Origin: Flavobacteriia bacterium | GTDB taxonomy: Bacteria > Bacteroidota > Bacteroidia > Flavobacteriales_D > Crocinitomicaceae | NCBI GenBank assembly: GCA_947446925.1 | Contig: CANFHU010000012.1 | Span: forward strand, 1-64,000 | Length of the DNA stretch: 64,000 bases | Reading direction: 5' to 3' | Shown here: one piece after another, positions 2,925 to 38,700 of the stretch | Layout: the number at the start of each line of letters is the position of its first letter | Numbering within the stretch: the stretch's first letter is position 1 | Notes under the pieces: model-generated | Told to the model about the DNA's origin: nothing | The model's input: the letters and a program-made list of their open reading frames with translations, nothing else | The model's database searches: none | Translations under genes and position numbers: made by a program

Positions 2925-3317
2925 TTATTTACGAACTATTTCAGCGTTTATCGTTAGTTTAGTTAAAGAAGGTTCCGTATTTGCAATGATACGTACTCCT
3001 TTGCTTAACATTCCTTCTGCAGCATTGTCTGTACGAACAGTAGCGGATATTTTTCCTGTCTCTCCTGGTTCGATTGGATCTTCTGGAAATTCAGCAACTG
3101 TACAAGAGCATTCTCCTTTTACTTCCGCAATGATTAAAGGGTATTTCCCAGTGTTTTTAATCGTGAAATTTGCTTCTACTTCTTCGCCTAACATTACTTT
3201 TCCGGCATTAAACGTATCGTTTACAGAAAGTGTCGTTTTATTCCCTACCTCTAATTTATCATTAGATGTACAGGAAAACAAAAGTAAGCCAAGTGCTAAT
3301 AATGCTGTTTTTTTCAT
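2925..3317 (-). CDS. DUF1573 lipoprotein
   Basis: A 130-residue protein with a lipoprotein signal peptide (LLLFSC, Cys near residue 16) and a single DUF1573-type beta-sandwich domain: [22 protein letters not shown], split here as [11 protein letters not shown] and [11 protein letters not shown], then GECSCTV and [13 protein letters not shown]. Domains of this type occur between nusB and yajC in many Bacteroidota. Their biochemical role is not established; the fold resembles Ig-like or ASH domains used in binding. It is probably co-transcribed with its neighbours, since gaps of 19 and 57 bp separate it from yajC and nusB. Confidence 0.88.
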
Positions 3318-3374
3318 TGTGATTTAAATTAAAAAAGTCGAAAGTTACTAGTTTTTTGATGGATGTATCTATTA

Positions 3375-4304
3375 TTAGTCAATTAATCCTCTTCCTATTT
3401 TCTGTATTTTTTGTTCTTTATCTAAACGATCGATAGCTTTATCTAAAATACCATTGATAAATCCACTACTTTTTGGGGTAGAATAGAATTTAGATATTTC
3501 AATGTATTCGTTTAGTGTAACTTTTTTAGGAATATTATTAAATTCTTGTAGTTCCGTAATAGCCATTTTCATGAGTATGATGTCCATTTTTGCAATACGG
3601 TCTAACTCCCAGTTTTTGGTTAAATCGTCAATTAATAAGACGTTTTCATGGTCATTTGCAATGGTTTTTCTCAAAAGTGTTTTTACAAATGGAATTTCAT
3701 CCTCTGGATCTTTGAATAAAGGATGGATAGTAATGGATGCATCTTCAGTCGCTTGTTTGATGGATTTCAATGCGATACCACATGCAAGATCAATATCGTC
3801 TAACCAATGAATACTTTTTTCTTCAAAGAAATTATAGATCAATGGTGAGTTTGCAATTTCTGCTTTAAACAAAGCGACTACAAAATTTTTGTCTTCTTCA
3901 AACGTATTAGTTTCAGATTGCATGTAGTTAAAGAATAATTCACTTTCGCGTATTTGCTGCATGATTTTCTTAAACATTTCACGGTGTTCATCGCCAATCC
4001 AGTTTACTTTGTTTCTTTCTGATGCTTCACGAAGTTCTGCATTTTCTGTAATCAAAGTAATTACTTTGTTTTGCACAAAACGATCATTTGTGGATCTAGA
4101 TTTTAATTTACTCTCGGCAATTTTTTGCTCTTCTACATCCTTTAATTCTTCAAATGAAAGCAACAAGTACAAGTAAATGTCATAGATTCGCTCGATGGAG
4201 TTCATTAATTCTTTTTCGATTACTCTAAAATCATTTTCATTGGATTGAAAATAAGCGTAAAGCACTTGTAATACTTTGATTCGTAAGTGTCGTCTGTTTA
4301 ACAT
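3375..4304 (-). CDS. nusB: Transcription antitermination factor NusB
   Basis: A 309-residue protein, longer than the roughly 140-residue NusB of Proteobacteria but normal for Bacteroidota, where an N-terminal helical extension precedes the NusB domain. The N-terminus RRHLRIKVLQVLYAY carries the typical RNA-binding start. The C-terminal part has WELDRIAKMDIILMKMAI and VTLNEYIEISKFYSTPKS, then FINGILDKA, which is the diagnostic NusB core. NusB binds boxA RNA with S10 and prevents premature termination in rRNA operons. It is the first gene of the group with DUF1573 and yajC and is divergent from the ABC exporter gene. Confidence 0.93.
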   Translation of the reverse strand: MLNRRHLRIKVLQVLYAYFQSNENDFRVIEKELMNSIERIYDIYLYLLLSFEELKDVEEQKIAESKLKSRSTNDRFVQNKVITLITENAELREASERNKVNWIGDEHREMFKKIMQQIRESELFFNYMQSETNTFEEDKNFVVALFKAEIANSPLIYNFFEEKSIHWLDDIDLACGIALKSIKQATEDASITIHPLFKDPEDEIPFVKTLLRKTIANDHENVLLIDDLTKNWELDRIAKMDIILMKMAITELQEFNNIPKKVTLNEYIEISKFYSTPKSSGFINGILDKAIDRLDKEQKIQKIGRGLID

Positions 4305-20503: not shown

Positions 20504-23500
20504 TTAATTATTCGCAATTGTCACTTTTACACGATCTACTACTACCTTGTTTTGGTTACTTATCTCTACTATATACAAACCTGTCACCGCGTTTGGTAAA
20601 TGGATTTCATAACTATTATTTCCGACGAATGCATCATAGGTATCTGAAAATATTACCTGACCAATTTCGTTTAGTAAATGTAGTGTGTAACTTGCATTGT
20701 TTTGTGCTTTTAAATCGACATGGATCAATTGATTCGTAACAGGGTTTGGGTATACATTTACGTCTATTTCAGAAGGAATTTGTGCTACGACTAATTTCAC
20801 GGATACAATGTCTGAATACGCAAACTTACCATCAAAATCGGTTTGTTTCAAACGGTAGTAAGACACTCCGGTATATGGATTCGCATCGTAGCCAAAGTAG
20901 TATTGATTCACTTTACTGTTTCCGGATCCTTTTTTCGTAAATACTTTCTCAAAAGTTTTACCATCCAAAGATCTTTCTACGGTAAAGAAATCATTGTTTT
21001 CTTCGGAACCTGTTTCCCAATCTAAACGTACCTTTTTGCCTTCTGTTTTTGCGGTGAAATTAATTAAAGTAATTGGTAATGCGCTTGGATCTTCTACACT
21101 GAAAGGGGAGAAGGAGGTGATAGAATCTCGGGAAATAGTGTAAAAGTCTCCTGAACTATTTGTTGCAGAAACAGGTGTAAATCCTGTGTCCCAAGAAGTA
21201 CCGTTCCAATGACCTATGTAACAATTTGTTCGAGTAAAATCTGGTAATTCTCGTGCAATATTCCATTGGAGTGTCATAGAAACGGTATAACCAGCACCAT
21301 TTGCACTCACATACCAACTTCTGTCGATACAATGATTTGTTTTAGGTGAACCTGAAGTTCCATTAGACAAACGACCTTGACCGATATAAACACTAATATC
21401 ACGAGTAGTTCCTGTATTGTTTAATGTGCATGGTGTGTAGTCATTTGAATTAGCAGAAAATCCAATCGGGAATACCTGTTTTCCTACAACTGCACTACTA
21501 CCTAAATCTCGTTGTATTACTTTACCAGATCCATTCGTGACGATAAAATTAGCATCATCATACCCACTAAATATCCCATTACTTCCTATTGTTAAATCGT
21601 AATTGTTTAATGTGAGTTTGGAGCCTCCATTAAATACAAAGTTTCCGTTAACCGTTATCGCACCACCCGCAATTTTTGAGGATGCATTGCTTATTGTTAC
21701 GTTACCATAGTTTTTTGCTGGTATTACTTGTGTACCAGTCGGAGCATTAAAATGTATGGTTGCCCCCACATCTATCGTGCCTAAAGTTGGTATAGTTGTA
21801 CTCGTAATCGTTAGTGTCATATTATTAGATACATCAATTGTACCACTTACTGGATTCGTATTAGTTATGGTAAAGTTTGTCGGATGAATTCCATCACCTA
21901 CGATAATTTTACTACTTGGATCTAGTGACCAACTAGCGTCGTTCGTTGGGGTAGTGGTAGTGTTGTGTAGAATGTAGAATGTTGTTCCGCCTACCGTCAT
22001 ACTAGATGGATGTGTTCCTGTTCCGTCAGGATTTGAACCCCAATTAGACATACTCGACATTGGTGAAATACCATTATAATAAAAAGTGGTAACGTCTGAA
22101 TGAATAGTTATATCTGTTGTAGCGCTTACTTGCGGACACCCACCACTCGTTGGTATGGTATACGTTATGGTGTAGTTACCAGGTGTACTTGAACTTGGAG
22201 TAACGGATCCAGTTGTAATGTCGATACTTAAACCAGTGGTAGAAGAATATAAACCGCCACTTGTACCGCTTAAACTAACAGTTTGACCCGCACCTTGGTT
22301 GGTGGTAAATGGGGAACCGTTATAGGTAATAGAAGCGGTTGGTAATGTTGTTACGGTGACATTTGTTTCTGAAGAAGTAGCACTACATCCACTTGCATTG
22401 GTAACAATTACGGAGTAATTACCTGTAGCGGTAACATTGATGCTTGAAGTTGTAGCGCCATTACTCCAAAGATAGGATGCACCTGCAGATGCGTTTAAGG
22501 TTACGCTTCCTCCACTACAAAAAGTAGTTGCTCCTCCTGCTGAAATGGTTGCTGTAGGTAATGGATTTACCGTTACAACCGCACTACCTGTTTTATCACT
22601 AGCGTTAGCAGTACAATTTGCATCGCTTAAAGCAGATACAGTATATGTTTTAGAAGATGATGGACTCACCGTAAAAGTATATGGACTGCTTGTAATTCCA
22701 GAAACGGATACAGGGGTTGTACCATCCGTATAGGTAAGGCTCCATGGTTGAGTACCCGTCAAAGCGATACTGATATAAGAAGAAGTAGCACCATTACAAA
22801 TAGTTTGATCTCCGGAAATCAGAGAAGTAGGACGCGCATTTACAGTAACCGTTGCACTACCTGTTTTATCACCAGCGTTAGCAGTACAATTTGCATCGCT
22901 TAAAGCAGATACAGTATATGTTTTAGATGACGAAGGACTCACCGTAAAAGTATATGGGCTGGATGTAATACCAGTAACAGAAACTGGTGTTGTACCATCG
23001 GTATAGGTAAGACTCCAAGGTTGAGAACCAGTCAAAGCAATACTGATATTAGAAGAAGTAGCACCATTACAAATACTTTGTGTTCCAGAAATTACGGATG
23101 TTGGTCCAGCTTTAGGAACTATTTCTCCAGTACTTAGAATCATTGCACCACACGAATAATTGTTAAATGTAATTTGACTCAGTTGTGTTGAATTCAAACC
23201 TGTCCCATCTGAGCCAATAAAAATTTGACGTCCACTTGTGTTTGCTGTACCTGCAACACCATTCCAATTGTATATTGTGATGGTGGAAGCATCCCATGTT
23301 TGACCACTACTTGCTTTAAAGTAGTATTTGTTAGCACCACTTGTTCCTAGGTTAATTGTAGTATTCACATCTAAATCTAACTGACCAGCAGAACTTGCTG
23401 TTGCCGTACCAGAACCTAAATCAAACAATCCTAAATTCAAAGTTACACCTGAAGTTGTGGTGGTTTGAATTACACCCGCTGATGCACTCACTGGTAAAGC

Positions 23501-26500
23501 ATTGGCAACGCCTAGGGAGATTGAACCGTTGGATAAAATTGTTTTACCCGTAAAGGTATTCACTCCAGAAAGCATTAAAGTACCAGCACCAGTTTTTGTT
23601 AAATTGCCACTTCCAGCAACAACACCTCCATAAGATAAGGTTTTTGTGCTTGACACATCTATTGATCCATTGGAAGTGCCTATTGTAATACCCCTATTTA
23701 AGGATAACGTAAAATCATTCGTAATTCCAAGAGTTCCACCATTTAAAGTTATGCTAGAAGCAGTTGTCGAACCAGGAACAGCACCTAAATTACCATCGGA
23801 AGAAATATTTAATGTTCCAGCATTTATTGTAGTATTTCCAGTATATGTGTTTGCGCCTGATAAGGTAAGTGTCTCGTTACCTATTTTTGTTAATGCATAC
23901 CCACCGCTTATTATTCCGCTTAATGTCAGACCTCCTGTTCCGGAAGAAGCCAAAGTAGCATTTCCTGTTAGGGTAATCGGATTTGCAAAAGTGGTTAATG
24001 AACTACCCGTGCTATTGAAAAGTGCACCTGAATTAGAAACTCCTGAACCTTGGATTTCAAAAGAACCCCAAGAATCTACGGTTTTGTTGTTTATATCTAA
24101 TGCTCCTCCATTTTCTATAACTACTTTATTTCCAGATGCTCCTGTCCATGTTGCGCCTGCTTGATATTGATGACCTTGTTGAATTATAAATATTTGACTT
24201 GTAGTTGTAAAGTCAGATGGATTATTTGAAGTTGTATATCTAGTTGAATTATAGTAATTATTTCCGCCACCTGTACCTGAACCTGAGGAAGAACTAACCT
24301 TCATAGATGTGTTTGAGTAAATTGCTACAACATTCCCCCAAAAAGTACCATCACTTTTATTTATAGTATCACCAACTGAGAAGTCTGAAAGAAAATTTGT
24401 ATTCGTTCCAGTTATTGTTGTTGATGATTTTGAAATTGTACCTGCTAGATTAGTTGCACACGAACCGGTTCGACAACTGTAATTGCTTCCAGACCTGTAT
24501 CTAGTCCAATTTGAAGTTGATTGAGAAGGAGTGTTAGAAGTAGAAGTTTTAGAATACCAAATTGATCCTGAAATACTTTCATATGCTCCTATATATTGAT
24601 TTGCATTAGGTCTAGAGATTTTAATTAAATCATTCTGAATATTAATATTTGCATCATTGTATAAATTCTTTCCTTTTTGAGATAAATAGGTTGATGATGT
24701 AGCTTGCCCATTGATATCTAGATAGATTGTATTTGATTGACCTGTTCCGTTAGTACCACTTGAATAGTTTGTAATTAAATTTCCAGTTCCATTTGTTCTT
24801 GACAAGGTAACTGTAGAACCTTCCCAGTTTGCAAAGGAGATAGAAGTAGTGTTAAATGTTATTGCATTAGCTGTTCCTCCTGTAGCCTGATAATAATTAT
24901 TATCATGATATATAGTTCCATTTGTTGGTACATATAAATTTTGACAATCTGTTCCACTTTTTATAATAAATATATTATTATATAAATAATACGTTCCGGT
25001 TGATAGGTTTAAATTCCTTAAATTGCTAGAAGTGCTTGATCTTATTTGATTATATAGAAATGTATTGCTGTAAATATAAGATGTCAAAGCACCAATTGAG
25101 ACTAAATGACCAGTATATGTTGCATATAAATTTGGCGTACTAATGAAGTTGTTATAAATCTTAAGTGTACCTGATGTGATTCCATCTAGAGAGAAAATTT
25201 TTGATTGAAGATCAGTACCGTTATGACCACTATTTGATAAGTTAGTAAACTTATTATGATTTATTGTAATTGTTAAGTTACTATTTGTTGAACTTACTAA
25301 ATAAGAAGATCCTTTTATTACACCAGAGCTAACTCCATTTACAATGTTATCTACAATATTTTCAGAAATTTGGATTGTTGTAGATGAACACATAATTGCT
25401 AAAGCACTAACATTTGTGTTTCCTGATCCTGTAGATTCATTACATTGTATTTTTTTTATTTCGTTGCCTTTAAGTAATGTTTGTGATGAGCCAGTTAAAT
25501 TTTGACCTAAATAAATACCATACATTATATTATCACCTGAAGCATTATTAATTACAGTACTATATTCACCATTACATTTAGAAGAAGTGCCACCAATATA
25601 ATTTTGATTTATTTGATATCCATCACCGGAATCAACAAAAATAAATGCATAATTATTAGTTCCAGCAGCTGAACCTCCAATTGAAGTAGTAAGATATATA
25701 CTATTACCTTGTATCATCCATGCATCCGAATTTGTATTAATATAAATTCCATCATCTCCAAAATCCCTCACCTCACAATTCGAAATCGTATTCGACGCAT
25801 TCACATACCCTGCCGACCCAGTCGATTCTATCGCATATTTCTGCGTACCACTATTCGGAAAAATGATACAATTATCAATGGTATTATTACTGTTTCCTAC
25901 CGAACTTGAAGTTCCAAAAAGTACCGTCGCTACAGTGGATGTACCAGCACTTTTGATATTCGTGTATTGTATCGTGTTGTTGGTTGCGCCCTCGTTAAAA
26001 CGAATAACATTACCGCTCGTTGTTGTATTATAAATTGTTAGAAAGTTCGTTGTCCCTGAACCACCTAATCTACCATCTATCGTTACATAATCTGCTCCAT
26101 TCATATCAATCAGCGCACTAGTAGAACTTCCGTCCATCGTAATTGCAGCGGTAACATTGCTTTTTGGTCTAATCGTTAACGTCGCTGAAGCGGAAGTATT
26201 AAGCCCGTAAAAGTTTATCGGATACGTTTCGTTTACTTCTTGTGTCGTACGATACGTTTCATCCAATTCCAAAATGACATTCCCTGAAATACATTCTTTT
26301 ATCGCAGCTAATGCTGCAGTAAGTGTAGTCCAATTCCCTCCAGATGCAAGTGTTCCAATCGTATATGTGCCACTGTACGTTGTTCCACATGTTCCACTTG
26401 TATATTCATAACAGCCAATGTCTGGATTCCCTTTACGCAAATTGGAAGCATAATCATCAATAGGAGGGGAGTTTGTAGTTGTACCGGCGTTGATACATGG

Positions 26501-27598
26501 GGAACTGCTTTGAAGCGTCATGTTCGTAGTACTTGTCACAAGTGGATTGGTGTTAGCTGCCAAACAATTTGTTGTTACATCTGCTGTGATTATACCATAA
26601 CAACAATTGATTAATGATGTGGTAGAAGACCCTGCATCATAAAAGTCTTTGCCAGTATTACTGTAAAGTATAGTATTGTAGATGTTGGCAATATATGCTG
26701 CATAAATACCATTTGTGCTACCTGCAGGACTTGTATTATTATAAACTGTTGAATTTTTAACAGTCAAAGTAGTATTGGCATTACCATAAATAACCCCATT
26801 GTGGCTTGAAGAATTAGATGTGTTTCCGTAAAATTGGCTGTTAATAATAATTAAATCTGAATTAGTACTACCATTAACTGCGATAGCTGAGCCGTTGTTT
26901 ATACCTGCACAGGAATTATTAGCGAATTTACATCTGGTTATATTTAGATTAATTTCTCCGGATGTCGTAGATGCATAGATAGCACCACCACTCCCTGATC
27001 CTGTAATGTCACAATTTTGGAAAGTACAGTTTGTAATGGTTGTGTTAAAAGTACTTGTTGTTGAAAAAAGAGTGATTGCAGCTCCATTTGATGAAGCAAC
27101 ATCACAATTGTCAAATAAACAGTTTGTTAAAATTAAACCATCAACCCCATCTGTATTTTGATTTATCCCTCTGGTATAATCTTTTATAGTGATTTTATCA
27201 ATCGTAATGTTGTCGTTGGTTGAATTAGTAATACCCATCCAAAGGCTTGTGTTATCTGAGTCAAAGATACTCGTTGGTGTTCCGCTAGACAATGCTGCCC
27301 CTTGAATCGTGAAACTTTCATCATCAGAACCAATGGCAATTCCTTTCTCTGTATACGTCCCTGCCGCCACATAAATAATATCCCCACTTCCCAAATTATA
27401 GGTGTCAAAAATACTTTGTATTGTTGCTTTTGGAGTACCAACTGCGGTTCCGTTATTTCCAACTGTCCCATTCGTCGCAACATAATAATTCGTTGCAAAA
27501 CTTTTTCCCGTGAAAAAACAAATAAATAGTAACATTAAAATGCCAATCTTCCCAATTCTAACGCCGTTTTTGTACTTTGTTTCTACCATTCCTTCCAT
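20504..27598 (-). CDS. Giant T9SS-secreted surface protein 1 (beta-helix, autotransporter-type and Ig-like repeats)
   Basis: 2364 residues. Signal peptide (hydrophobic IGILMLLFICFFTG, cleavage near KSFA). Residues about 37-1000 are Asn/Ser/Thr-rich parallel beta-helix repeats (TIQSIFDTYNLGSGDIIYVA at the start). Residues about 1240-1375 carry autotransporter-associated strand repeats (LSGANTYTGNTTINAGTLNI). Residues about 1495-1680 hold two near-identical Ig/PKD-like repeats (SICNGATSS). Further Gly/Ser/Thr-rich modules follow, and the C-terminus is a type A T9SS sorting domain (VNVYPNPV, GLYIVEIS). It should be exported by Sec and T9SS and attached to the surface as an adhesin. The last 200 residues are nearly identical to those of the other giant protein. 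The start may be either of two Met codons three apart. Confidence 0.85.
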   Translation of the reverse strand: MEGMVETKYKNGVRIGKIGILMLLFICFFTGKSFATNYYVATNGTVGNNGTAVGTPKATIQSIFDTYNLGSGDIIYVAAGTYTEKGIAIGSDDESFTIQGAALSSGTPTSIFDSDNTSLWMGITNSTNDNITIDKITIKDYTRGINQNTDGVDGLILTNCLFDNCDVASSNGAAITLFSTTSTFNTTITNCTFQNCDITGSGSGGAIYASTTSGEINLNITRCKFANNSCAGINNGSAIAVNGSTNSDLIIINSQFYGNTSNSSSHNGVIYGNANTTLTVKNSTVYNNTSPAGSTNGIYAAYIANIYNTILYSNTGKDFYDAGSSTTSLINCCYGIITADVTTNCLAANTNPLVTSTTNMTLQSSSPCINAGTTTNSPPIDDYASNLRKGNPDIGCYEYTSGTCGTTYSGTYTIGTLASGGNWTTLTAALAAIKECISGNVILELDETYRTTQEVNETYPINFYGLNTSASATLTIRPKSNVTAAITMDGSSTSALIDMNGADYVTIDGRLGGSGTTNFLTIYNTTTSGNVIRFNEGATNNTIQYTNIKSAGTSTVATVLFGTSSSVGNSNNTIDNCIIFPNSGTQKYAIESTGSAGYVNASNTISNCEVRDFGDDGIYINTNSDAWMIQGNSIYLTTSIGGSAAGTNNYAFIFVDSGDGYQINQNYIGGTSSKCNGEYSTVINNASGDNIMYGIYLGQNLTGSSQTLLKGNEIKKIQCNESTGSGNTNVSALAIMCSSTTIQISENIVDNIVNGVSSGVIKGSSYLVSSTNSNLTITINHNKFTNLSNSGHNGTDLQSKIFSLDGITSGTLKIYNNFISTPNLYATYTGHLVSIGALTSYIYSNTFLYNQIRSSTSSNLRNLNLSTGTYYLYNNIFIIKSGTDCQNLYVPTNGTIYHDNNYYQATGGTANAITFNTTSISFANWEGSTVTLSRTNGTGNLITNYSSGTNGTGQSNTIYLDINGQATSSTYLSQKGKNLYNDANINIQNDLIKISRPNANQYIGAYESISGSIWYSKTSTSNTPSQSTSNWTRYRSGSNYSCRTGSCATNLAGTISKSSTTITGTNTNFLSDFSVGDTINKSDGTFWGNVVAIYSNTSMKVSSSSGSGTGGGNNYYNSTRYTTSNNPSDFTTTSQIFIIQQGHQYQAGATWTGASGNKVVIENGGALDINNKTVDSWGSFEIQGSGVSNSGALFNSTGSSLTTFANPITLTGNATLASSGTGGLTLSGIISGGYALTKIGNETLTLSGANTYTGNTTINAGTLNISSDGNLGAVPGSTTASSITLNGGTLGITNDFTLSLNRGITIGTSNGSIDVSSTKTLSYGGVVAGSGNLTKTGAGTLMLSGVNTFTGKTILSNGSISLGVANALPVSASAGVIQTTTTSGVTLNLGLFDLGSGTATASSAGQLDLDVNTTINLGTSGANKYYFKASSGQTWDASTITIYNWNGVAGTANTSGRQIFIGSDGTGLNSTQLSQITFNNYSCGAMILSTGEIVPKAGPTSVISGTQSICNGATSSNISIALTGSQPWSLTYTDGTTPVSVTGITSSPYTFTVSPSSSKTYTVSALSDANCTANAGDKTGSATVTVNARPTSLISGDQTICNGATSSYISIALTGTQPWSLTYTDGTTPVSVSGITSSPYTFTVSPSSSKTYTVSALSDANCTANASDKTGSAVVTVNPLPTATISAGGATTFCSGGSVTLNASAGASYLWSNGATTSSINVTATGNYSVIVTNASGCSATSSETNVTVTTLPTASITYNGSPFTTNQGAGQTVSLSGTSGGLYSSTTGLSIDITTGSVTPSSSTPGNYTITYTIPTSGGCPQVSATTDITIHSDVTTFYYNGISPMSSMSNWGSNPDGTGTHPSSMTVGGTTFYILHNTTTTPTNDASWSLDPSSKIIVGDGIHPTNFTITNTNPVSGTIDVSNNMTLTITSTTIPTLGTIDVGATIHFNAPTGTQVIPAKNYGNVTISNASSKIAGGAITVNGNFVFNGGSKLTLNNYDLTIGSNGIFSGYDDANFIVTNGSGKVIQRDLGSSAVVGKQVFPIGFSANSNDYTPCTLNNTGTTRDISVYIGQGRLSNGTSGSPKTNHCIDRSWYVSANGAGYTVSMTLQWNIARELPDFTRTNCYIGHWNGTSWDTGFTPVSATNSSGDFYTISRDSITSFSPFSVEDPSALPITLINFTAKTEGKKVRLDWETGSEENNDFFTVERSLDGKTFEKVFTKKGSGNSKVNQYYFGYDANPYTGVSYYRLKQTDFDGKFAYSDIVSVKLVVAQIPSEIDVNVYPNPVTNQLIHVDLKAQNNASYTLHLLNEIGQVIFSDTYDAFVGNNSYEIHLPNAVTGLYIVEISNQNKVVVDRVKVTIANN

Positions 27599-27783
27599 CT
27601 TATTTCTTTTTATTTCCTGCGAATGATATTCAACATCAAACGCTTAACTAATTCTTTTTTTCTCTTCTACTTGTCTTCGTGTATTTCCGCTAAAATAAAA
27701 GCGAAAAAAAGAAAGAAATATTTGCGTAACCCTTGTTTTTGTTGTAATTTAATGGAAAGTAAGCGGAGAGAAATTTTCCCCGT

Positions 27784-27804
27784 GAAAGTCTAAACTAGAC
27801 TTTC
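27784..27804 (-). promoter_or_regulatory. Left copy of inverted site flanking the recombinase
   Basis: On the minus strand this reads GAAAGTCTAGTTTAGACT plus TTC, a 9-3-9 palindrome. The first 18 bases recur exactly on the plus strand at 29544-29561. It lies about 186 bp upstream of the giant gene 1 start. It is either a recombination site or an operator shared by both giant genes. Confidence 0.65.
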
Positions 27805-27826
27805 ATCCGAGCCTAATCGTTTCGGT

Positions 27827-27848
27827 AAAAGCACCCAAAAAGGGGTGC
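27827..27848 (-). terminator. Terminator of the recombinase gene
   Basis: On the minus strand, GCACCC / GGGTGC stem with a 6-nt loop followed by TTTT, 26 bp after the recombinase stop. It separates the recombinase transcript from giant gene 1. Confidence 0.7.
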
Positions 27849-27853
27849 GTTGT

Positions 27854-27873
27854 CAACCTATGAGGTTGTTTTT
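27854..27873 (+). terminator. Plus-strand terminator facing the recombinase 3' end
   Basis: CAACCT-atg-AGGTTG followed on the plus strand by seven T. There is no plus-strand gene to its left, so its role is unclear unless the segment changes orientation. Confidence 0.5.
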
Positions 27874-29136
27874 TTATTCAAAGAACGATTTATACGTGTT
27901 CGCCGTTAATTCTGCATCCAAGCGCAAATAGCGTAGGAAATTTTGCTCCGAACTGTGACCACTAAACTTCATGATCACATGACTAGGCATTCCAGCTAAA
28001 AACTTCAAGGTGCAAAAGGTCCTTCGCCCTGTGTGGGAGGAGATTAAGCTGTATTTTTTACGTGTTATAGCCACCGATTCCCCCTGAACTTTTTGGTAGT
28101 AGGTACTCGTTTCTACAATCCCTGCTTCTTTGCAAATTTCTTTCAGTAGTTTATTGAACGTGTGTATTTTAGTATAGGCATATTGTGGAAGTTCGCCTGT
28201 AGGATACGTTGCAAGGATCCGTTTTACGCGTTTGGAATACGGTATCAAAATGCGGTTGCTGTAACTCTGGTTGCGCGTTTTTTTAGGGTAAATTTCAAAT
28301 TGCCCTGGCTGACGTGTATGGGTTCCTAACTGACTCACATCGCTAAAACGCATCCCTGTTTCGCAACTCACTAAAAACAAATCCCGTACGGTTTTGCGTT
28401 CGCCACTCAGTGCTAACGTTTCCAATGCTTCCAACTCTTTCTCGGTCAAATACACGTGCTGTACTACTTCGGTGGCAGTATGCATGTGTTTCGTGGAAAA
28501 CTTCGCAATGTAGGCATGGTCAAAACACCAATTCAAAAATGCTTTCAGGTTCTTAAATTGCTTCCATACGGTATTCATTTGCAACCCTTTCGTGCCTTTT
28601 TGGTTGGTGGCGGTGAGCAACATATAACTGCGCATCTGCTCCACAAACCCCTGTTCGGAGTACTGCAAAGCATCAAAACTTACACGGATGCCACTCGTAA
28701 CTTCGGTTGCTTGCAAGTGCTTGCGTAAGGCATGGTCGTAGTCTTGGTGCGACTGCGTGGTTTTTTGTTTGTAAGCCACAAATGCGTCAAACAACTTCCA
28801 GAAATAAGCCGACTTTTCGGTAGTGCTACGTTGGTCTAAAAAAGCAGTGATATGTTGTTTAATCCCTTCCAAAGTAGGCGTTTCCTGCATTTTTGGCACT
28901 TCCTCCAAATACTGCAAAATCGTTGCCTCCAATGCGTCCAGACGTTGGTTAATGCTGTTTGTTCGTTCCTGGTCTTCGGGTGCCAATACGCGTTGTTTTG
29001 CTCGGTCCCAGTGACATACAAGCACGCGCTCCTTGGTACTCATGCGCAAGCGCTTGCCCTGAAAATGTACACTCAGTAATATGCTTGTTTCTTGCTTCGC
29101 GTGTAGCGTTCGAAGATTATAATTGACCGTTTTCAT
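27874..29136 (-). CDS. Tyrosine recombinase / phage-type integrase (Bacteroidota type)
   Basis: A 420-residue site-specific recombinase. The N-terminal arm-type domain (residues 1-100, HAKQETSILLSVHFQGKRLR) and SAM-like core-binding domain (about 105-220) precede the catalytic domain. There SCETGMRFSDVSQL gives the first catalytic Arg, SSHTGRRTFCTLKFLAG gives the His-x-x-Arg box, GHSSEQNFLRYLRL gives the third His and the nucleophile Tyr. The full R-H-R-H-Y set is present, so it should be active in strand exchange. No phage or transposon genes accompany it. It sits between two giant divergent adhesin genes and is flanked by an 18-bp inverted repeat, as expected for an invertase-like role. Confidence 0.9.
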   Translation of the reverse strand: MKTVNYNLRTLHAKQETSILLSVHFQGKRLRMSTKERVLVCHWDRAKQRVLAPEDQERTNSINQRLDALEATILQYLEEVPKMQETPTLEGIKQHITAFLDQRSTTEKSAYFWKLFDAFVAYKQKTTQSHQDYDHALRKHLQATEVTSGIRVSFDALQYSEQGFVEQMRSYMLLTATNQKGTKGLQMNTVWKQFKNLKAFLNWCFDHAYIAKFSTKHMHTATEVVQHVYLTEKELEALETLALSGERKTVRDLFLVSCETGMRFSDVSQLGTHTRQPGQFEIYPKKTRNQSYSNRILIPYSKRVKRILATYPTGELPQYAYTKIHTFNKLLKEICKEAGIVETSTYYQKVQGESVAITRKKYSLISSHTGRRTFCTLKFLAGMPSHVIMKFSGHSSEQNFLRYLRLDAELTANTYKSFFE

Positions 29137-29765
29137 GACGTAAGGTGTTCGTTTATAAAAACAACACTTCTAAAAAATCCTTTCCTCCAACGTGTTAACC
29201 TAGGTTAATATCTTATTAACAATGCCATCGTATCCCAAAAACCACTAATTCTATGATTATGAGTAAACTACTGTTTTTATAACAAACAATAGAAACTTCT
29301 AACTGTGAACAAAGTCTACATATTTAGCTTGCGTATGCAAACTATTTTTCGTAATATTATGTATATTTGTGTGTTAGATTTGTTGGTACTGCTTTCGCTT
29401 TTCGTGAAATTGCAAGCAACCTACCACACATCGAAACGTTTGATAAGAAAGACCGCGCAAACGAGCGTTGTCACTTTCCAAACGAAGGCTTCGAGGTAAA
29501 AGATAGATACGTAGCATGTTTACGAATGTTAATAGTTAGTTTTGAAAGTCTAGTTTAGACTGCTATTTTAAAATTAATTAATTGGTAAATAAGTGTTTAG
29601 TTGTTTTAGTGATTCGTTTTACTGCGTAGTTTTTGAAAAATTAAATTATACGTAGTATAACGTATAAAATTACGGTTTATTACAGTGTAAGTCGTTAAAA
29701 AAAAATAAAAGAATGTTAAATCTTCTAGTAGGTTGAAAAACAGACTAGAAACAACGATAAAAAAG
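29137..29765. promoter_or_regulatory. Upstream region of giant gene 2
   Basis: About 630 bp without a credible gene. It holds a plus-strand TATATTTG (29362-29369) that fits the -7 box but lacks a good -33 box, and the right copy of the 18-bp inverted site at 29544-29561. Two short ORFs here (29305-29499 and 29367-29558) overlap in different frames and show no domain or codon pattern; they are not supported. Confidence 0.5.
29544..29561 (+). promoter_or_regulatory. Right copy of inverted site flanking the recombinase
   Basis: GAAAGTCTAGTTTAGACT, an exact 18-base inverted copy of the site at 27787-27804. It lies about 205 bp upstream of the ATG chosen for giant gene 2. The palindromic right arm is incomplete here (GCT in place of TTC). 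Confidence 0.65.
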
Positions 29766-32700
29766 ATGAAAAATTTTACGAAATTTTTAGGAGGGAGTAG
29801 AAGTGGAGCACTAAGATTGTTGTTGGTGCTTGTGGGGATGGTTTGGGGAGTTGGGGCTTGGGGGGCTACATATTATTCCAAATCAGGAACAGCACCAAAT
29901 GTAAATACAAACTGGAATAGTAATAGAGACGGAACAAGTGGATCGACACCTGGTGGTTTTACTTCAGGTGATATATTTGTTATTCAAGGTTCTGCAAGTG
30001 CTCCAGGAGGAACAGCACATTCATTAACTACAACGGGAACCTGGTCGATTTCAGGTACAAGCTCAAAATTATGGATTGAAGGAGGAGCAACACTAACGGC
30101 TAGTCATTTAATTACTTTATCATCTTCAACTACTTGGCAAATAGATGCCAATGGAAAATATGTAAATAATCACTCAGGAGATATTTGGGCTAATACATTT
30201 ACTGGAATAGAATCATTCGATGCTTCAAGTACATTTGAATTTCAAGATTTACAAACTACTTACAATACTGGAACAAGTATGGCTTTAGAAGCATTAATGA
30301 CATCATCTTCTTGTAATTTTGGTAATATTTTATGGAATATTATTGCATCCAACAATACTAATTATAGAATTCGGCTATCTGGTGCTTCAACAAAAACAAT
30401 AAATGGCAATCTTACAATTGCTAGGACAGGAACATCTGGATCTTTATTTCTATTTGATAAAAGTACAGCAGGTAAATTAACAATTTCTGGAAATTTCATA
30501 CAGACTGGAGGTACTTTTTATGAAATTTATACTGGTGCAGGCACAAGTGGAACAATATTAGAAGTACTTGGTGATTTTTCACTTTCGGGTGGAATTTTTG
30601 ATTTAAATAATACTCCAGGTTCATATTCAGGTTCACTTTATATTGGTGGTAATTTTTTAATGACTTCAGGAACTTTACGAAATTCATCAAATACAACTTC
30701 AAACTGTGCTATCTATTTTACAAAATCAGGAACACAAACTTTTACCCAATCTGCAGGCACATTTACCACAACTTATATCCCTTTTACTGTAAATAGTGGC
30801 TCTTATCTTAAATTAGCATCAAATTTTAGTTTGTCAAATTCATTAACTGTATTAAGTGGTGGTTCTTTAGATATACCTAATCCATATTATACTACCGGAG
30901 CAGGCTCAACGATATTAAATTCAGGATCAAAATTGTATATTGGTCATGCTAGTGGTATTTATTCTTCTACAGCGACGGGTGCTGTTCAAACTACCACACG
31001 AACATTTAGTAATACTTATTTTGAATATAATGGTACAGCTGCACAAGTAACGGGTACAGGTTTACCTTCAATTCTTACAGGTACTTTAAAAATAAATAAT
31101 TCAGAAACAATTACATCTTCAAGCACAGGGGTGACCTTATCTCAAGCAACAACTATTTCAACAGGGGCATTAACACTAACATCGGGTATATTAACAACTT
31201 CAACCTTATTAACGATTACAAATACTGCAACTTCAGCAATTTCTGGTGGTTCATCAGCGTCTTACATTAATGGACCTGTTAAATGGAGTCTCAATAATTC
31301 AACAGGGGGATATATTTTTCCAGTAGGTAAGAGTGGAAAGTATTATCCATTTACAATTACAGCAGCAGCAGCAACTTCGCCTATTTTTCAAATTGAAGCA
31401 TATTCTTCTGGATCAGGAGGATCGATAACAGGTGGTACTGTTTCGACTACTGAACACTGGAAACTAATTGAGTCAGCAGGTACTACTGTGAATGGGATTA
31501 CCCCAAAATTGGAAAGTCCTGATTTTTCTTCCACGACTGGTCAAGTTGGAATATCTTCTACTGCTACATTGAATGGAAGTTATACTAGTTTGGGTGGTAC
31601 TGTAAGTGGTAGTTCAGTAACTGCAACATTATCATCTAGTTCTTTATCTGGTCTTACTAGGTATTTTGCTATAGTAGACGGTGCAAAAATATATTATTCG
31701 AAGAATGCAGCAGGAGCAGGGGCTGCCGCTCAAACCCTTGGCAATTGGAATAGTGACGCAACTGGTGCTGGAGGAGGTGTAGCACCTACAGATTTTACCT
31801 CTGATGGGTATAGTTTTGTCATACTCTCCGGTCATTCATACAAAGCAACTGCTTCATGGACAGGAAATGCGGGTGGTTATGTACAGGTAAATTCAGGGGG
31901 GGCTTTAGATCTAAATGCACAAACTATTTCAACATTTGGAACCGTAAAAATTGCTGGAACGGGTGTGAGTAGTTCAGGAGCATTATTTTCTTCATCTGCA
32001 TCAGCTTCCACACTTTCTTTACCAATTACTTTAACTGCAGATGCAACAGTTGGTTTTAGTAGTACTGGTGCAATTACATTTAGTGGAGTTATTGGCGGTG
32101 CATATAAATTAACTAAAACTGGTACACCTGTATTAACTCTATCTGGAGCAAATACATATTCAGGAGGTTTTACTTTGTCTGCTGGTACATTAAATATAGA
32201 TAATGATGCTGCTTTAGGAACAGGAACTTTCACTATAAGCGGAGGTACAGTGGATGCAATTACTGCAGCACGAAATATAACGAATGCGATGTCAGTTGGA
32301 GGGTCATTTACTTTTACAGGAACACAAAATTTATCTCAATCTTCAGGAGCTATTACTTTAACGGCAACACCAACGATTACAATTTCTGCAAAAATTCTTT
32401 CCCTTGGAGGAAATATTGGAGGTGCTTTTGGTATAGTACAGGCAGGTAATGGAACATTTACACTATCAGGAACCAATACATTTAGTGGCGGTTTTTCCTA
32501 CTCAAGTGCTACAGCTACGGGAACAACTAATATAAAAAGTTCTTCAGCTCTTGGGTCAGGTACCTTAACGGTTAATTCAAGTTCTTCATCGGCAAATCTA
32601 ATAGATAATAATTCAGGAAGTATAATTACTATTACGAATCCAATTTTAATTTCTAATACTTATCTAAATTTTGTTGGAACAAACAGTCTTAGTCAAACTA

Positions 32701-35700
32701 CAGGAGCAATTACTTTGTCCTCTTCAACAACTATTAATACAACTGCCAGTACATTATCTTTAACTGGAGTTATTGGTGAGTCAGGAGGTGCTAGGTCAAT
32801 TACTAAATCAGGAGGTTCTGGTATATTGTTATTAGCAGGTAATAGTACTTTTTCTGGAGGAGTCTCATGGACAACTACACAATCAGGGCGAATTATTATC
32901 AATAATAATAACGCATTGGGTACAGGTACTTTTACAATAACTGGAACAACTTATGGAACTGCTAATGCGAATTCAATCGATAATACTAGTGGAAGTATAA
33001 TAACGATTCCAAATGCTATAACTATATCTGGGAAGTATGCGTTTATAGGTTCTTATTCAATGGTGTTTTCAGGAACTGTAACAATTAGCACTACTGCTTT
33101 AAACCAAACAATTGTTGCAAATTCATTAACTATAAGTGGAGTATTAGCTGGAACAAGCGTTTCACTTGTAAAAGATGGAGTCGGTACTATGATATTAACA
33201 AACAATAATACGCAAACTGGTTCCACAAGTGTAGTTTCAGGTGTTTTAAATGTTCAGCATGCAAATGGTTTAGGATTAGCTGGAGTTACAGTTAGTAGTG
33301 GAGCCGCTCTTCAATTACAAGGTGGTGTTTCTATGGCCTCTGAAACTTTGAGTTTGTCAGGAACAGGAGTATCTTCGGATGGTGCGTTAAGAAGTGTTAC
33401 TGGAGCTAATACTTGGCAAGGATCAATTACATTGGCTGCTGCGTCTAGAATTAATTGTGATGCTGGTTCATTAACTATCTCTGGAACAACAACAAATTCG
33501 ACCTTTGATTTAACATTAGGAGGTTCTAGCTCTATAATTGTTTCAGGTGTGATAGGAAATGGGGCAGGAAATATAGTAAAAGATGGTACAGGATCATTGA
33601 CAATGTCTGCTGCTCATACTTACACTGGTTTAACAACAGTTAACAATGGTACTTTAAAATTAGGCGTTTCTTCTGCTGTTAGTACATCTGGTCCTTTGGG
33701 TACCTCTGCTACAGGTACAATTGTAGCTAGTGGTGGTTCATTAGATTTTAATGGCTTTTCGTTAACTAGTAGTTCTACTGAACCTATCACAATTAACGGT
33801 TCTGGTTATGGATCAATTGGAGCAATTACAAATGGAAGTAGCACAGGTTCTTCATGTGTTGGAACGATAAATTTAGCAGCTTCCTCAATTGTTCAATCAA
33901 CTTCAGGAAGTCTTACTTTTACAGGTAATGTTAATTTAAATAATTCATTAACACTTGATTGTTATAACGACATTACATTTAATACAGGTGTTATATCAGG
34001 CGCAGGAGGCATAATTAAAAGCAATTCACTAGCAAATATTACTCTTTCTGGTACAAATACTTTTACTGGTGGTGTTATTTTAAATGCAGGGATATTAAAA
34101 ATAGATAATAATTCAGCTTTAGGTACAGGTGCTTTAACAATTAATGGAGGTTTAATTGATGCTTTATCTTCTTCTAGAACTATTACAAATGCAATTTTAA
34201 TCAAAGCATCTTTTACATATGTAGGTTCCTCTTATAATTTAATTCAGAATACTGGATCTATAAGTTTATTTGCTTCTCCTACTATAACAATCTCCGGCAA
34301 TACACTAAGTTTAAATGGTGTAATTGATGAAGGAACTATTGAAACCTATACCTCAGGCATAAGTGATACTTGGACTTGTCCATCTGGTGTTTCTTCAGTA
34401 ACAGTTCATTGTTGGGGAGGTGGAGGTGGAGGGTCTGCTGCTTATGGAAATAGTGGTAAAGCTGGTGGTGCTGGTGGTACTTATTCATCGAGTTCAATTT
34501 CTGTAACTGCTGGCAATACTTATAATTTTACCATTGGTGATGGTGGTTCTGCTGGTACATACAATAATAATAATGCAATTTATGTTGAGGCATCAAGAGG
34601 AGGAGATACGTACTTTGGAAATACAAATGCAGGTAGTTCTTCAGGAGCTACGGTTATTGCAACTGGTGGTGGTTATGGTACTAGTGGAAATGTTGCTGGT
34701 ACTAGTTCAACTTCCAGTAATGTTGGTACAACTACATATTCTGGAGGAAATGGTTACACGGGTGGATCTAATAATCCTTGCGATCATTCTGGTGGTTGCC
34801 AAACAGGTGGAGGAGGAGGTGGTGGTGCCGGTAGCGGTAGTGCTGGTACAACTGCTTGTTTAGGAACCGGCGGGACAGGAACATATCCTGGAGGAAATGG
34901 AGGTCAAGGTAATTGTCAAGGTGCAGGTAATACGTATACATCAGTTTTTGCTCCAGGTGGTGGTGGTTCTGGTGCTAGTGCAGGTGCTAGTTCAAGTAAT
35001 TCTGGTGGTGTCGGTGCACCTGGTAAATTAATTATTGCTTACACAGTTTCAATTAAGTCTATAACTAAAAATGGTGTTGGAACATTATCTCTAGGGGGGG
35101 CTAATTTATATGGTGGAACAACAACTTTAAATGCAGGTACTTTAACTATTGGAGCTAATAATGCTATACCTGTTGCAGCAACTGGTGGAGGAGTAGTCTT
35201 AAATGGTGGTACTTTAAATGCTGGAAGCTATACCGTTGGTTCAAGCACTACAAATATGGGTACATTAACATTAGGAGGTACAGCTACTTTAGCACTTGGT
35301 ACAGGTACTTTGTATTTTGCTAATTCTACAAGTACAACTTGGTCAGGTTCGATGACTATCACAGGTTTTGTTTCAACTGCTGTAAATACTGGAGGTACAA
35401 CTGGAGGTAAGCTATTTGTAAACTACCAATCCGGAGGGGGGTGTAGTAATTGTGGTTTAAATTCTACGCAATTGGGATTATGCTCATTCAATACTGCTTT
35501 GATTGGAGGTGTTGCTGCTACTTATTCTGCAACTCAGATTGCATCTGGTGAGATTGTTCCAATAAGCGTAACAATTACGTTAGCATCAAATACGATTTCA
35601 TCAGCAAGTAGTTGTGCTTCCTCAACGAAAGTACCTATTCAAAGTTTTAGTTTAGCTGTTTCTGGTGGTTCTGGTAATTTAACAAATGTTGGTTTTACTA

Positions 35701-38700
35701 CTACAGGAACTTATGTGCAAGCAGATATTTCTAAATACCAACTTTGGTATGGAACAACAAATAGCATTGGTAGTGCAGCACAGTTAGGTACTGATTTAAC
35801 TTCATCAGGTGCAGCTGGAGCAAGAACATTTTCAGCTTTTACATCACCAACACTTACAAATGGAAATACATATTATTTTTGGATTACTGCCGATCTTTCT
35901 TCAAGTCCTACTGCAAGTAATACAATTGCTGTAAATGCTATTACTACTTCTGATTTAACCTCAACAAGTGCGAAAGCTGGTTCTACTTCTTCAGGAGGTA
36001 CGCAAACATTGAGAGGAGCTTTCTCCTCAGGAACGATAGCGTCCACAGGCGAAACGATATGTAATGGTGGAACACCAGCAACAGCAATAGGAAGTACTAC
36101 AGCATCCAGTGGAGGAGATGGAACAATAACTTATTCTTGGAGATCTTCTGCAGATAGTTATACAGCAGCAATCTCAGGAGCAACAAGTGCAACCTACACA
36201 CCGCCAGCAGGCTTAACGAGTACAACATCTTACCAACGCTATGCAAAAGATGGAACTTGTAATACAACTCCAACGGTATCCACAGGAACTTGGACAGTTA
36301 CCGTACGAACAGCTTTTACCTCAGGAACGATAGCGTCCACAGGCGAGACGATATGTAATGGTGGAACACCAGCAACAGCAATAGGAAGTACTACTGCATC
36401 TAGTGGTGGAGATGGAACAATAACTTATTCTTGGAGATCTTCTGCAGATAGTTATACAGCAGCTATATCAGGAGCAACAAGTGCAACATACACGCCACCA
36501 GCAGGCTTAACGAGTACAACATCTTACCAACGCTATGCAAAAGATGGAACTTGTAATACAACTCCAACGGTATCATCCGGAACTTGGACAGTTACCGTAC
36601 GAACAGCTTTCACCTCAGGAACGATAGCATCCACAGGTGAAACGATATGTAATGGTGGAACACCAGCAACAGCAATAGGAAATACTACAGCATCTAGTGG
36701 TGGAGATGGAACAATAACTTATTCTTGGAGATCTTCTGCAGATGCTTATACAGCAGCAATCTCAGGAGCAACAAGTGCAACATACACGCCACCAGCAGGC
36801 TTAACGAGTACAACATCTTACCAACGTTATGCAAAAGATGGAACTTGTAATACAACTCCAACGGTATCCACAGGAACTTGGACAGTTACCGTACGAACAG
36901 CTTTCACCTCAGGAACGATAGCATCCACAGGCGAAACGATATGTAATGGTGGAACACCAGCAACAGCAATAGGAAATACTACAGCATCTAGTGGAGGAGA
37001 TGGAACAATAACTTATTCTTGGAGATCTTCTGCAGATAGTTATACAGCAGCAATCTCAGGAGCAACAAGTGCAACCTACACGCCACCAGCAGGCTTAACG
37101 AGTACAACATCTTACCAACGCTATGCAAAAGATGGAACTTGTAATACAACTCCAACGGTATCATCCGGAACTTGGACAGTAACCGTACGAACAGCTTTTA
37201 CCTCAGGAACGATAGCATCCACAGGCGAAACGATATGTTCAGGTGGTACACCAACTGTGATTGGAAATTCAACTGCAGCAAGTGGAGGTGATGCATCGAT
37301 ATCCTATACATGGCGTTCTTCATCTGATTCCTATGTTTCTGCTATTTCAGGAGCAACCTCATCTACGTATACACCACCAGCAGGGTTAACTAGTACTACA
37401 AGTTATAGACGCTATGCAAATGACGGAACTTGTAATACTAGTCCATCAGTTGCTACAGGTACATGGACAGTAACCGTTACTGCAAATGTCACTCCTTCCG
37501 TTTCTGTTTCTGCTTCCTCTACTTCCGTATGTGCTGGTAGTTCGGTTACTTTTACGGCTACACCAACCAATGGAGGAGGTTCACCTTCGTATCAATGGAC
37601 ATTAAACGGTTCAAATGTTGGGACAGATGCAACTACTTATGTAAATAGTGGTTTGTCTTCCGGGGATGTTGTAACCGTGGTAATGACAGCAAACAATACT
37701 TGTCAAACTGCTTCTACAGCAAACGGAAATAGTATTACGATGTCCAATGCAAATGTCACACCAACGATTAGCATCTCAGCGGATAATGCAACTTCATGTG
37801 CTGGTTCCACGGTTACATTTACGACAAGTTCAACCAATGGTGGTGCAGGTCCAACCTATCAATGGAAACTGAATGGCGTAGATATTTCTGGAGCTACGAG
37901 TAGTTCTTATGCTGCTGCATCCTTTGCAAATTCAGATCAAGTTTCAGTTGTAATGACATCCAATGCAAGTTGTATTACAGCCTCAACGGCAACGAGTAAT
38001 ACAGTTACATTGTCGCGTAATGCACGCCCTACTACAGCAGTATTCGCAGGTGCAACTACGATTTGTAATGGTGCAAGCGCTAACCTAACAGTTACAATTT
38101 CAGGAGGTACTTCGCCATATAGTGTAGTATACACAGGAAACGGTGGAGGAACCGTAAGTACCTATACTTCTGGTAGTAATATTGCACAAGCACCAAGCAC
38201 TTCAACAACCTATGGTTTAACATCTGTAACAGATGCAAATGGTTGTACAGCAACAACGCCAAGTGGTACACCAACAATAACCGTAAATGCACGCCCTTCT
38301 ACCGCTGTTTTAGCAGGAACTACATCTATTTGTAATGGTGCAAGTGCAAATTTAACCGTAACAATTACGGGTGGTACATCTCCATATAGTGTCGTGTATA
38401 CAGGAAACGGGGGAGGATCCGTAAGTAGTTATACTTCTGGTAGTAATATTGCACAAGCACCAAGCACTTCAACAACCTATGGTTTAACATCTGTAACAGA
38501 TGCAAATGGTTGTACAGCAACAACGCCAAGTGGTGCACCAGTTATTACTGTAAACGCTTTACCAACAGCAACAATTTCTGCAGGAGGTTCTACTTCTTTC
38601 TGTAGTGGCGGTAGTGTTACATTAACTTCTTCCGCAGGTAGTTCCTACCTATGGAGCACAGGTGCTACTACTTCTAGTATTAGCGCAACCACCTCAGGTG

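Follow-up and report, generated by a model that had tools for sequence, protein, structure and literature searches.

A candidate invertible segment carrying an integrase-related tyrosine recombinase between two divergent giant genes in a member of the Crocinitomicaceae

Gut Bacteroidales provide many documented cases of promoter inversion, whereas records from Flavobacteriia are sparse, with one positive species reported (PMC5903667). In Bacteroides fragilis, surface-protein promoters are inverted locally by Tsr tyrosine recombinases (Weinacht et al. 2004, as cited in PMC12632263). The H segment of Salmonella (966 bp) contains the gene of its recombinase, Hin, and segments of this kind are rarer than short intergenic switches (PMC5903667). 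In UPEC, the ipuS/IpuA system flips a promoter for the E. coli autotransporter UpaE (PMC6083910). Our literature search, which covered few subscription papers, returned no paper describing the switch arrangement considered here.

The locus lies in a 64,000-nt stretch of contig CANFHU010000012.1 of a Flavobacteriia bacterium (assembly GCA_947446925.1; Crocinitomicaceae), the whole of which is called the window. The genome of the window is denoted G000, and G003, G116, and G238 are genomes of relatives. The main features of the locus are as follows.

27787..29561: proposed invertible segment of about 1.77 kb, bounded by a 19-bp exact inverted repeat and holding the recombinase gene, outward promoter-like boxes, and a terminator
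27874..29136, minus strand: tyrosine recombinase, 420 aa, with Pfam domains Arm-DNA-bind_5, Phage_int_SAM_5, and Phage_integrase
20504..27598, minus strand: giant gene 1, 2364 aa, with PATR repeats and a T9SS type A sorting tail; ATG at 27598
29766..41327, plus strand: giant gene 2, 3853 aa, with PATR repeats and a T9SS type A sorting tail; ATG at 29766
27787-27804 (minus strand) and 29544-29561 (plus strand): exact inverted repeat of the 18-mer GAAAGTCTAGTTTAGACT
27783..27805, minus strand: candidate left recombination site, a perfect 23-bp palindrome TGAAAGTC-TAGTTTA-GACTTTCA with its 7-bp centre at 27791-27797
29543..29561, plus strand: candidate right recombination site, TGAAAGTC-TAGTTTA-GACT, with its centre at 29551-29557 and a degenerate outer arm

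From comparison of the sequences, we consider that the locus is probably a two-state promoter-inversion switch that alternates the two giant genes and is operated by a tRNA-Asp island integrase turned to this use. Its likeness to the Tsr systems is one of arrangement, namely a tyrosine recombinase of Bacteroidota next to a surface-protein promoter that is, or here would be, invertible. Whereas a Tsr gene lies outside its short invertible promoter, the window recombinase lies inside the segment, at each end of which another giant gene would be served by the promoter. With Hin it shares a recombinase gene within the (here proposed) invertible segment and, as predicted, a promoter reading out of it; however, Hin is a serine recombinase that controls one operon together with a repressor, whereas here two divergent giant genes would alternate directly. 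The UPEC system resembles the proposed switch in having a tyrosine recombinase flipping the promoter of an autotransporter-type surface protein, but its element measures 260 bp with 7-bp repeats, its recombinases are encoded outside or only overlap the edge, and it has one target operon. The island integrases of tRNA-Asp share the sequence family (35-44% identity), the three-domain layout, and a GTC-N7-GAC core with the window enzyme; their sites are direct repeats at tRNA-Asp 3' ends with islands, whereas the window recombinase lacks a tRNA site and is associated with inverted sites.

Recombinase, repeat pair, and giant genes

The recombinase is full length and is the sole gene between the repeat copies. 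All three domains (PF00589, PF17293, and PF13102) exceeded their gathering scores, and together with the R...H-x-x-R...H...Y residues they place it in the tyrosine recombinase/phage integrase family. The catalytic residues R263, H368, R371, H394, and Y403 are present by motif and are invariant across the four-member clade described below. The window genome contains one such recombinase. A search of solved structures by sequence gave no match, and an AlphaFold model built from four sequences had a mean pLDDT of 66, with values below 50 at the catalytic end.

The 18-mer of the preliminary description occurs exactly at the positions given there, and the repeat extends to 19 bp (27787-27805 and 29543-29561). 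That description had also called the sites partly palindromic around TAGTTTA, which holds, the left copy being a perfect palindrome that can be written as TGAAAGTCTA-GTT-TAGACTTTCA as well. The two copies agree throughout the inner arm and the 7-bp centre and into the first bases of the outer arm; the degeneracy of the right copy is confined to this outer arm. Distances of 186 and 205 bp from the sites to the starts of genes 1 and 2 had been claimed; the values found were close, at approximately 188 and 204 bp, respectively.

Dinucleotide shuffling of both intergenic regions (2000 replicates) gave longest shared inverted matches of 9.75 bp on average and 17 bp at most; none reached 19 bp. The repeat follows the layout GTC-N7-GAC (GAAAGTC-TAGTTTA-GACTTTC). 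When a shared inverted match and this layout, a rule derived from other loci, were required jointly, none of 20,000 shuffles for the window locus satisfied both. A spread of the 18-mer over many genes, as would be expected of a regulator site, was not observed in the 3.15-Mb genome, where the only two exact copies are those in the window.

The giant genes are divergent, one on each side of the recombinase, and both have PATR/beta-strand repeats. The C-terminal 397 aa of gene 2 share 65% identity with gene 1. By signature, both products appear to be T9SS-secreted proteins. In view of their repeats and T9SS sorting tails they are putative adhesins, as they had been called earlier.

Expression signals and the proposed inversion

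The signals around the recombinase gene are listed below.

29362..29369, plus strand: outward -7-like box TATATTTG, facing giant gene 2 and kept in G003
29375 and 29537, plus strand: further -7-like boxes TANNTTTG, inside the segment and toward gene 2
29454..29472, plus strand: leader element CGCGCAAACGAGCGTTGTC, 19 nt, located after the promoter-like box and ahead of the site, with an exact match in G003
27831..27848, minus strand: hairpin resembling an intrinsic terminator (GCACCC-GGGTGC, then UUUU), located after the recombinase stop codon and before the left site
27847..27855, plus strand: candidate left arm-type recombinase site GCGTTGTCA (TGACAACGC on the minus strand)
29465..29473, plus strand: candidate right arm-type recombinase site GCGTTGTCA

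The outward box reported at 29362 was confirmed on the plus strand and is conserved in G003. On the minus strand between 27599 and 29763 there is no TANNTTTG box, and hence none toward gene 1. Two outward -7 boxes were reached in 220 of 5000 shuffles, a mildly unusual count, and no clear -33 box was seen near the outward -7-like boxes; a sigma-70-type promoter scan is uninformative in Bacteroidota. From the conserved promoter-like box it is approximately 180 nt downstream to the right site, which lies within the leader. The leader element CGCGCAAACGAGCGTTGTC could fold as a small hairpin and may include an arm site of the recombinase. The 81-nt stretch that holds the terminator-like hairpin folds with a z-score of -4.9, and this hairpin is predicted to insulate gene 1 in the sequenced orientation, in which gene 2 is predicted to be ON and gene 1 OFF.

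After inversion in silico, both sites and every coding frame stayed intact, the three -7-like boxes were on the minus strand upstream of gene 1, and the terminator would face gene 2. In the proposed mechanism, the recombinase would act on a pair of inverted core sites (GTC...GAC with its arms, 7-bp overlap TAGTTTA) and flip a 1.77-kb segment carrying its own gene, the outward promoter-like boxes with the shared leader, and the terminator. As sequenced, gene 2 would be transcribed, with gene 1 behind the terminator and lacking a promoter-like box; inversion would swap these roles, so that two giant secreted surface proteins would be expressed alternately. The enzyme descends from island integrases of the tRNA-Asp 3' end and would have been recruited with a new overlap sequence. 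The anatomy of the locus, the phylogeny, the site architecture, and the recurrence in G238 are read directly from the sequences; we infer that inversion occurs, that the boxes act as promoters, and that the products are adhesins.

Related integrases at tRNA-Asp and a clade without the tRNA site

A search of the family gave 19 recombinase loci (35-53% identity or more). A scan of genome contigs returned no loci when started from the single protein and 19 when started from the clade alignment. The relatives come largely from environmental metagenomes. Most family loci carry GCGGTC-YGGACGG-GAC approximately 200 bp upstream of the recombinase, and at least 20 related recombinases adjoin their own such site. 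This sequence is the 3' end of tRNA-Asp(GTC). Sister genomes have one copy proximal to the recombinase, many of them add a second at an intact tRNA-Asp, and where a contig holds two copies these have the same orientation; relatives in public genomes follow the same site rule. The simplest reading of the sister enzymes, at least 20 in number, is that they integrate islands at the 3' end of tRNA-Asp(GTC). The block of identity between the two ends comprises GCGGTC and the next seven bases, which suggests a 7-bp overlap between GTC and GAC. Lambda Int and IntDOT also use a 7-bp overlap. The window repeat has the same GTC-N7-GAC layout as this attachment site.

The tRNA-site sequence GCGGTCYGGACGG is absent beside the window recombinase, and its single copy in the genome belongs to an intact tRNA-Asp elsewhere (locus L087, G000:C7:19659-19733; those of the relatives are L084-L113). 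Since this tRNA-Asp is intact and there is no second site copy, the window genome apparently has no such island. The window recombinase belongs to the protein clade of the island integrases but has no tRNA-Asp 3' end with a direct repeat. Phage and plasmid collections yielded only distant integrases (<36% identity), and a search of viral contigs yielded no relatives. One genome of the same genus (G008:C15:34508-40149) has three tyrosine recombinase genes within 6 kb. An integron or cassette array had been considered for the relatives on account of variable sequence upstream of a constant GCGGTCTGGACGG, and was rejected: the constant part is the tRNA-Asp 3' end, each relative locus has one site, which tRNA-Asp explains, the enzymes have an arm-binding domain, and the loci do not form an attC array.

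In a maximum-likelihood tree, G000, G003, G116, and G238 formed one clade (95/91) nested in the tRNA-Asp family (100/99). All four members are located beside giant surface genes and lack the tRNA site next to the recombinase. An additional search of one further family for members of this clade found only a tRNA-Asp type. The four have private GTC-N7-GAC palindromes in the flank, with these centres: TAGTTTA in G000 (two sites) and G003 (one), GGGAGGG in G238, and GGGGTTG in G116. The asymmetric TAGTTTA centre has the same orientation in its three sites in two species.

The closest relative, G003 (53% identity of the recombinase), has the same divergent giant gene, with AAAGTCTAGTTTAGAC in its leader. 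Of the right site, 16 nt are identical at the same place in G003; G003 has one clear site, and G116 and G238 have other centres. In the upstream alignment of G000 and G003, TATATTTGTNTGTTAGA is conserved, followed by CGCGCAAACGAGCGTTGTC and the site, just past which similarity ends. No second clear site and no second giant gene were found nearby in G003, a MAG of 84% completeness whose contig ends 1.9 kb past the recombinase. G116 has one site, on a 3.7-kb contig. There, the giant gene that follows the recombinase has its start codon and signal peptide in different frames (L068:3370-3440), in a stretch that contains the GTC-N7-GAC site; this mismatch stems from either misassembly or recombination.

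The architecture is repeated in G238 (contig CAMAQX010000178.1, labelled Lishizhenia tianjinensis), which belongs to the same family as the window genome. Its recombinase is located between two divergent giant genes with related signal peptides (MALALALFVVGIGNVWGQ and FALTLAMLVVGIGGVWGQ), and is bracketed by AACAGTC-GGGAGGG-GACTGTT and ATAGTC-GGGAGGG-GAATAT, inverted in the two leaders and the only two in the genome. The 13-bp match alone was reached in 45 of 1000 shuffles, and jointly with the GTC-N7-GAC layout in 1 of 20,000. A centre that is shared inside each genome but differs from one genome to another fits the needs of a crossover region rather than those of an operator. Between the recombinase and giant gene 2 of G238, inside its proposed invertible segment, are a Uma2-like gene with an in-frame stop and a PIN-like/DUF433-like pair (L075:2234-2833 and 3000-3600), all named by eye.

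TGACAAC flanks the recombinase on either side, in excess of expectation: two copies vs. 0.11 expected in G000, three vs. 0.06 in G238, and two vs. 0.08 in G116. It occurs once each in G026b and G012, and it forms repeats approximately 11 bp apart in G238 and in G026b/G012; in other relatives, the same place holds similarly spaced repeats of CCGTCCACGG or TGACCCCC. These TGACAAC-type, CCGTCCACGG, and TGACCCCC repeats may be arm-type sites. Upstream of the recombinases at loci L069-L081, the integrase promoters are covered, at about -60 to -20, by tandem repeats spaced approximately 11 bp (CCGTCCACGGTTCCGTCCACGG, TCTGACCCCCATCTGACCCCC), which are candidates for arm-type sites with autoregulation.

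Competing explanations and implications

Inverted sites bound a segment next to its putative target genes, with the cognate recombinase inside, as in G238. The earlier proposal of an invertible switch gains from the site layout of the sister tRNA-Asp integrases, from the twin sites of G238, and from the conservation of box and leader in G003, all of which are comparative observations. The main rival is an inactive or one-sided system, in which the core sites are genuine but the switch no longer operates, or the enzyme employs them chiefly in the exchange or capture of giant genes rather than in regular inversion. Several observations are consistent with it: G003 and G116 each have a single site, the similarity of G000 and G003 stops past the site as if the sequence beyond had been exchanged, and the sister enzymes integrate rather than invert. 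The single detectable site of G003 in particular would suit a locked or one-sided system. Decay would have led to drift, however, whereas the window has two intact sites that match in overlap and inner arm, together with a full-length recombinase, and G238 holds two inverted sites with another overlap. We regard this rival as unlikely.

A shared operator, on which a dimeric regulator would bind the palindrome and control both giant genes together, the recombinase being incidental, was the simpler alternative offered at the outset. The perfect 23-bp palindrome of the left copy and the related C termini of the divergent paralogues would suit it. The palindrome does not recur at other promoters, however, having only its two genomic copies; the asymmetric centre is kept in one orientation in three sites of two species; and the right site lies in the leader, well downstream of the promoter-like box. 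The layout is moreover that of an integrase attachment site, which the G238 pair shares with a different centre. The operator is thus weakened to the point of being improbable.

Less probable still is a 5' leader RNA hairpin in both messages (10-bp and 6-bp stems, GUU loop) that would tune stability or translation. The left copy folds well (-15.2 kcal/mol, z -3.8), and both copies have the same sense relative to their own gene, but the right copy is no more stable than shuffles (z -0.98), no Rfam family was matched at gathering score, and the recombinase between the copies and the tRNA-site layout would be left unexplained. A small mobile element, i.e., a 1.77-kb unit inserted between the two giant genes, would account for the inverted repeats that terminate a one-gene unit but can practically be dismissed, as there is no target duplication at the ends, each genome has one copy, the conserved block of G003 has a site at one end only, and the integrase family leaves direct rather than inverted repeats.

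Beyond the window, the comparisons tilt moderately toward one or more domestications of this integrase clade in Flavobacteriales, yielding inversion switches that act in cis on giant T9SS-secreted proteins, kept the GTC/GAC contacts, acquired 7-bp overlaps of their own in each lineage, and give mutually exclusive expression of two proteins (2400-3900 aa). The link to tRNA-Asp would offer a rare view of an integrase becoming an invertase, with the same arms, a new overlap, and inverted sites, and the GTC-N7-GAC rule provides a search key for further switches. If the switch is real, attachment or phage sensitivity could vary within clonal populations of Flavobacteriales.
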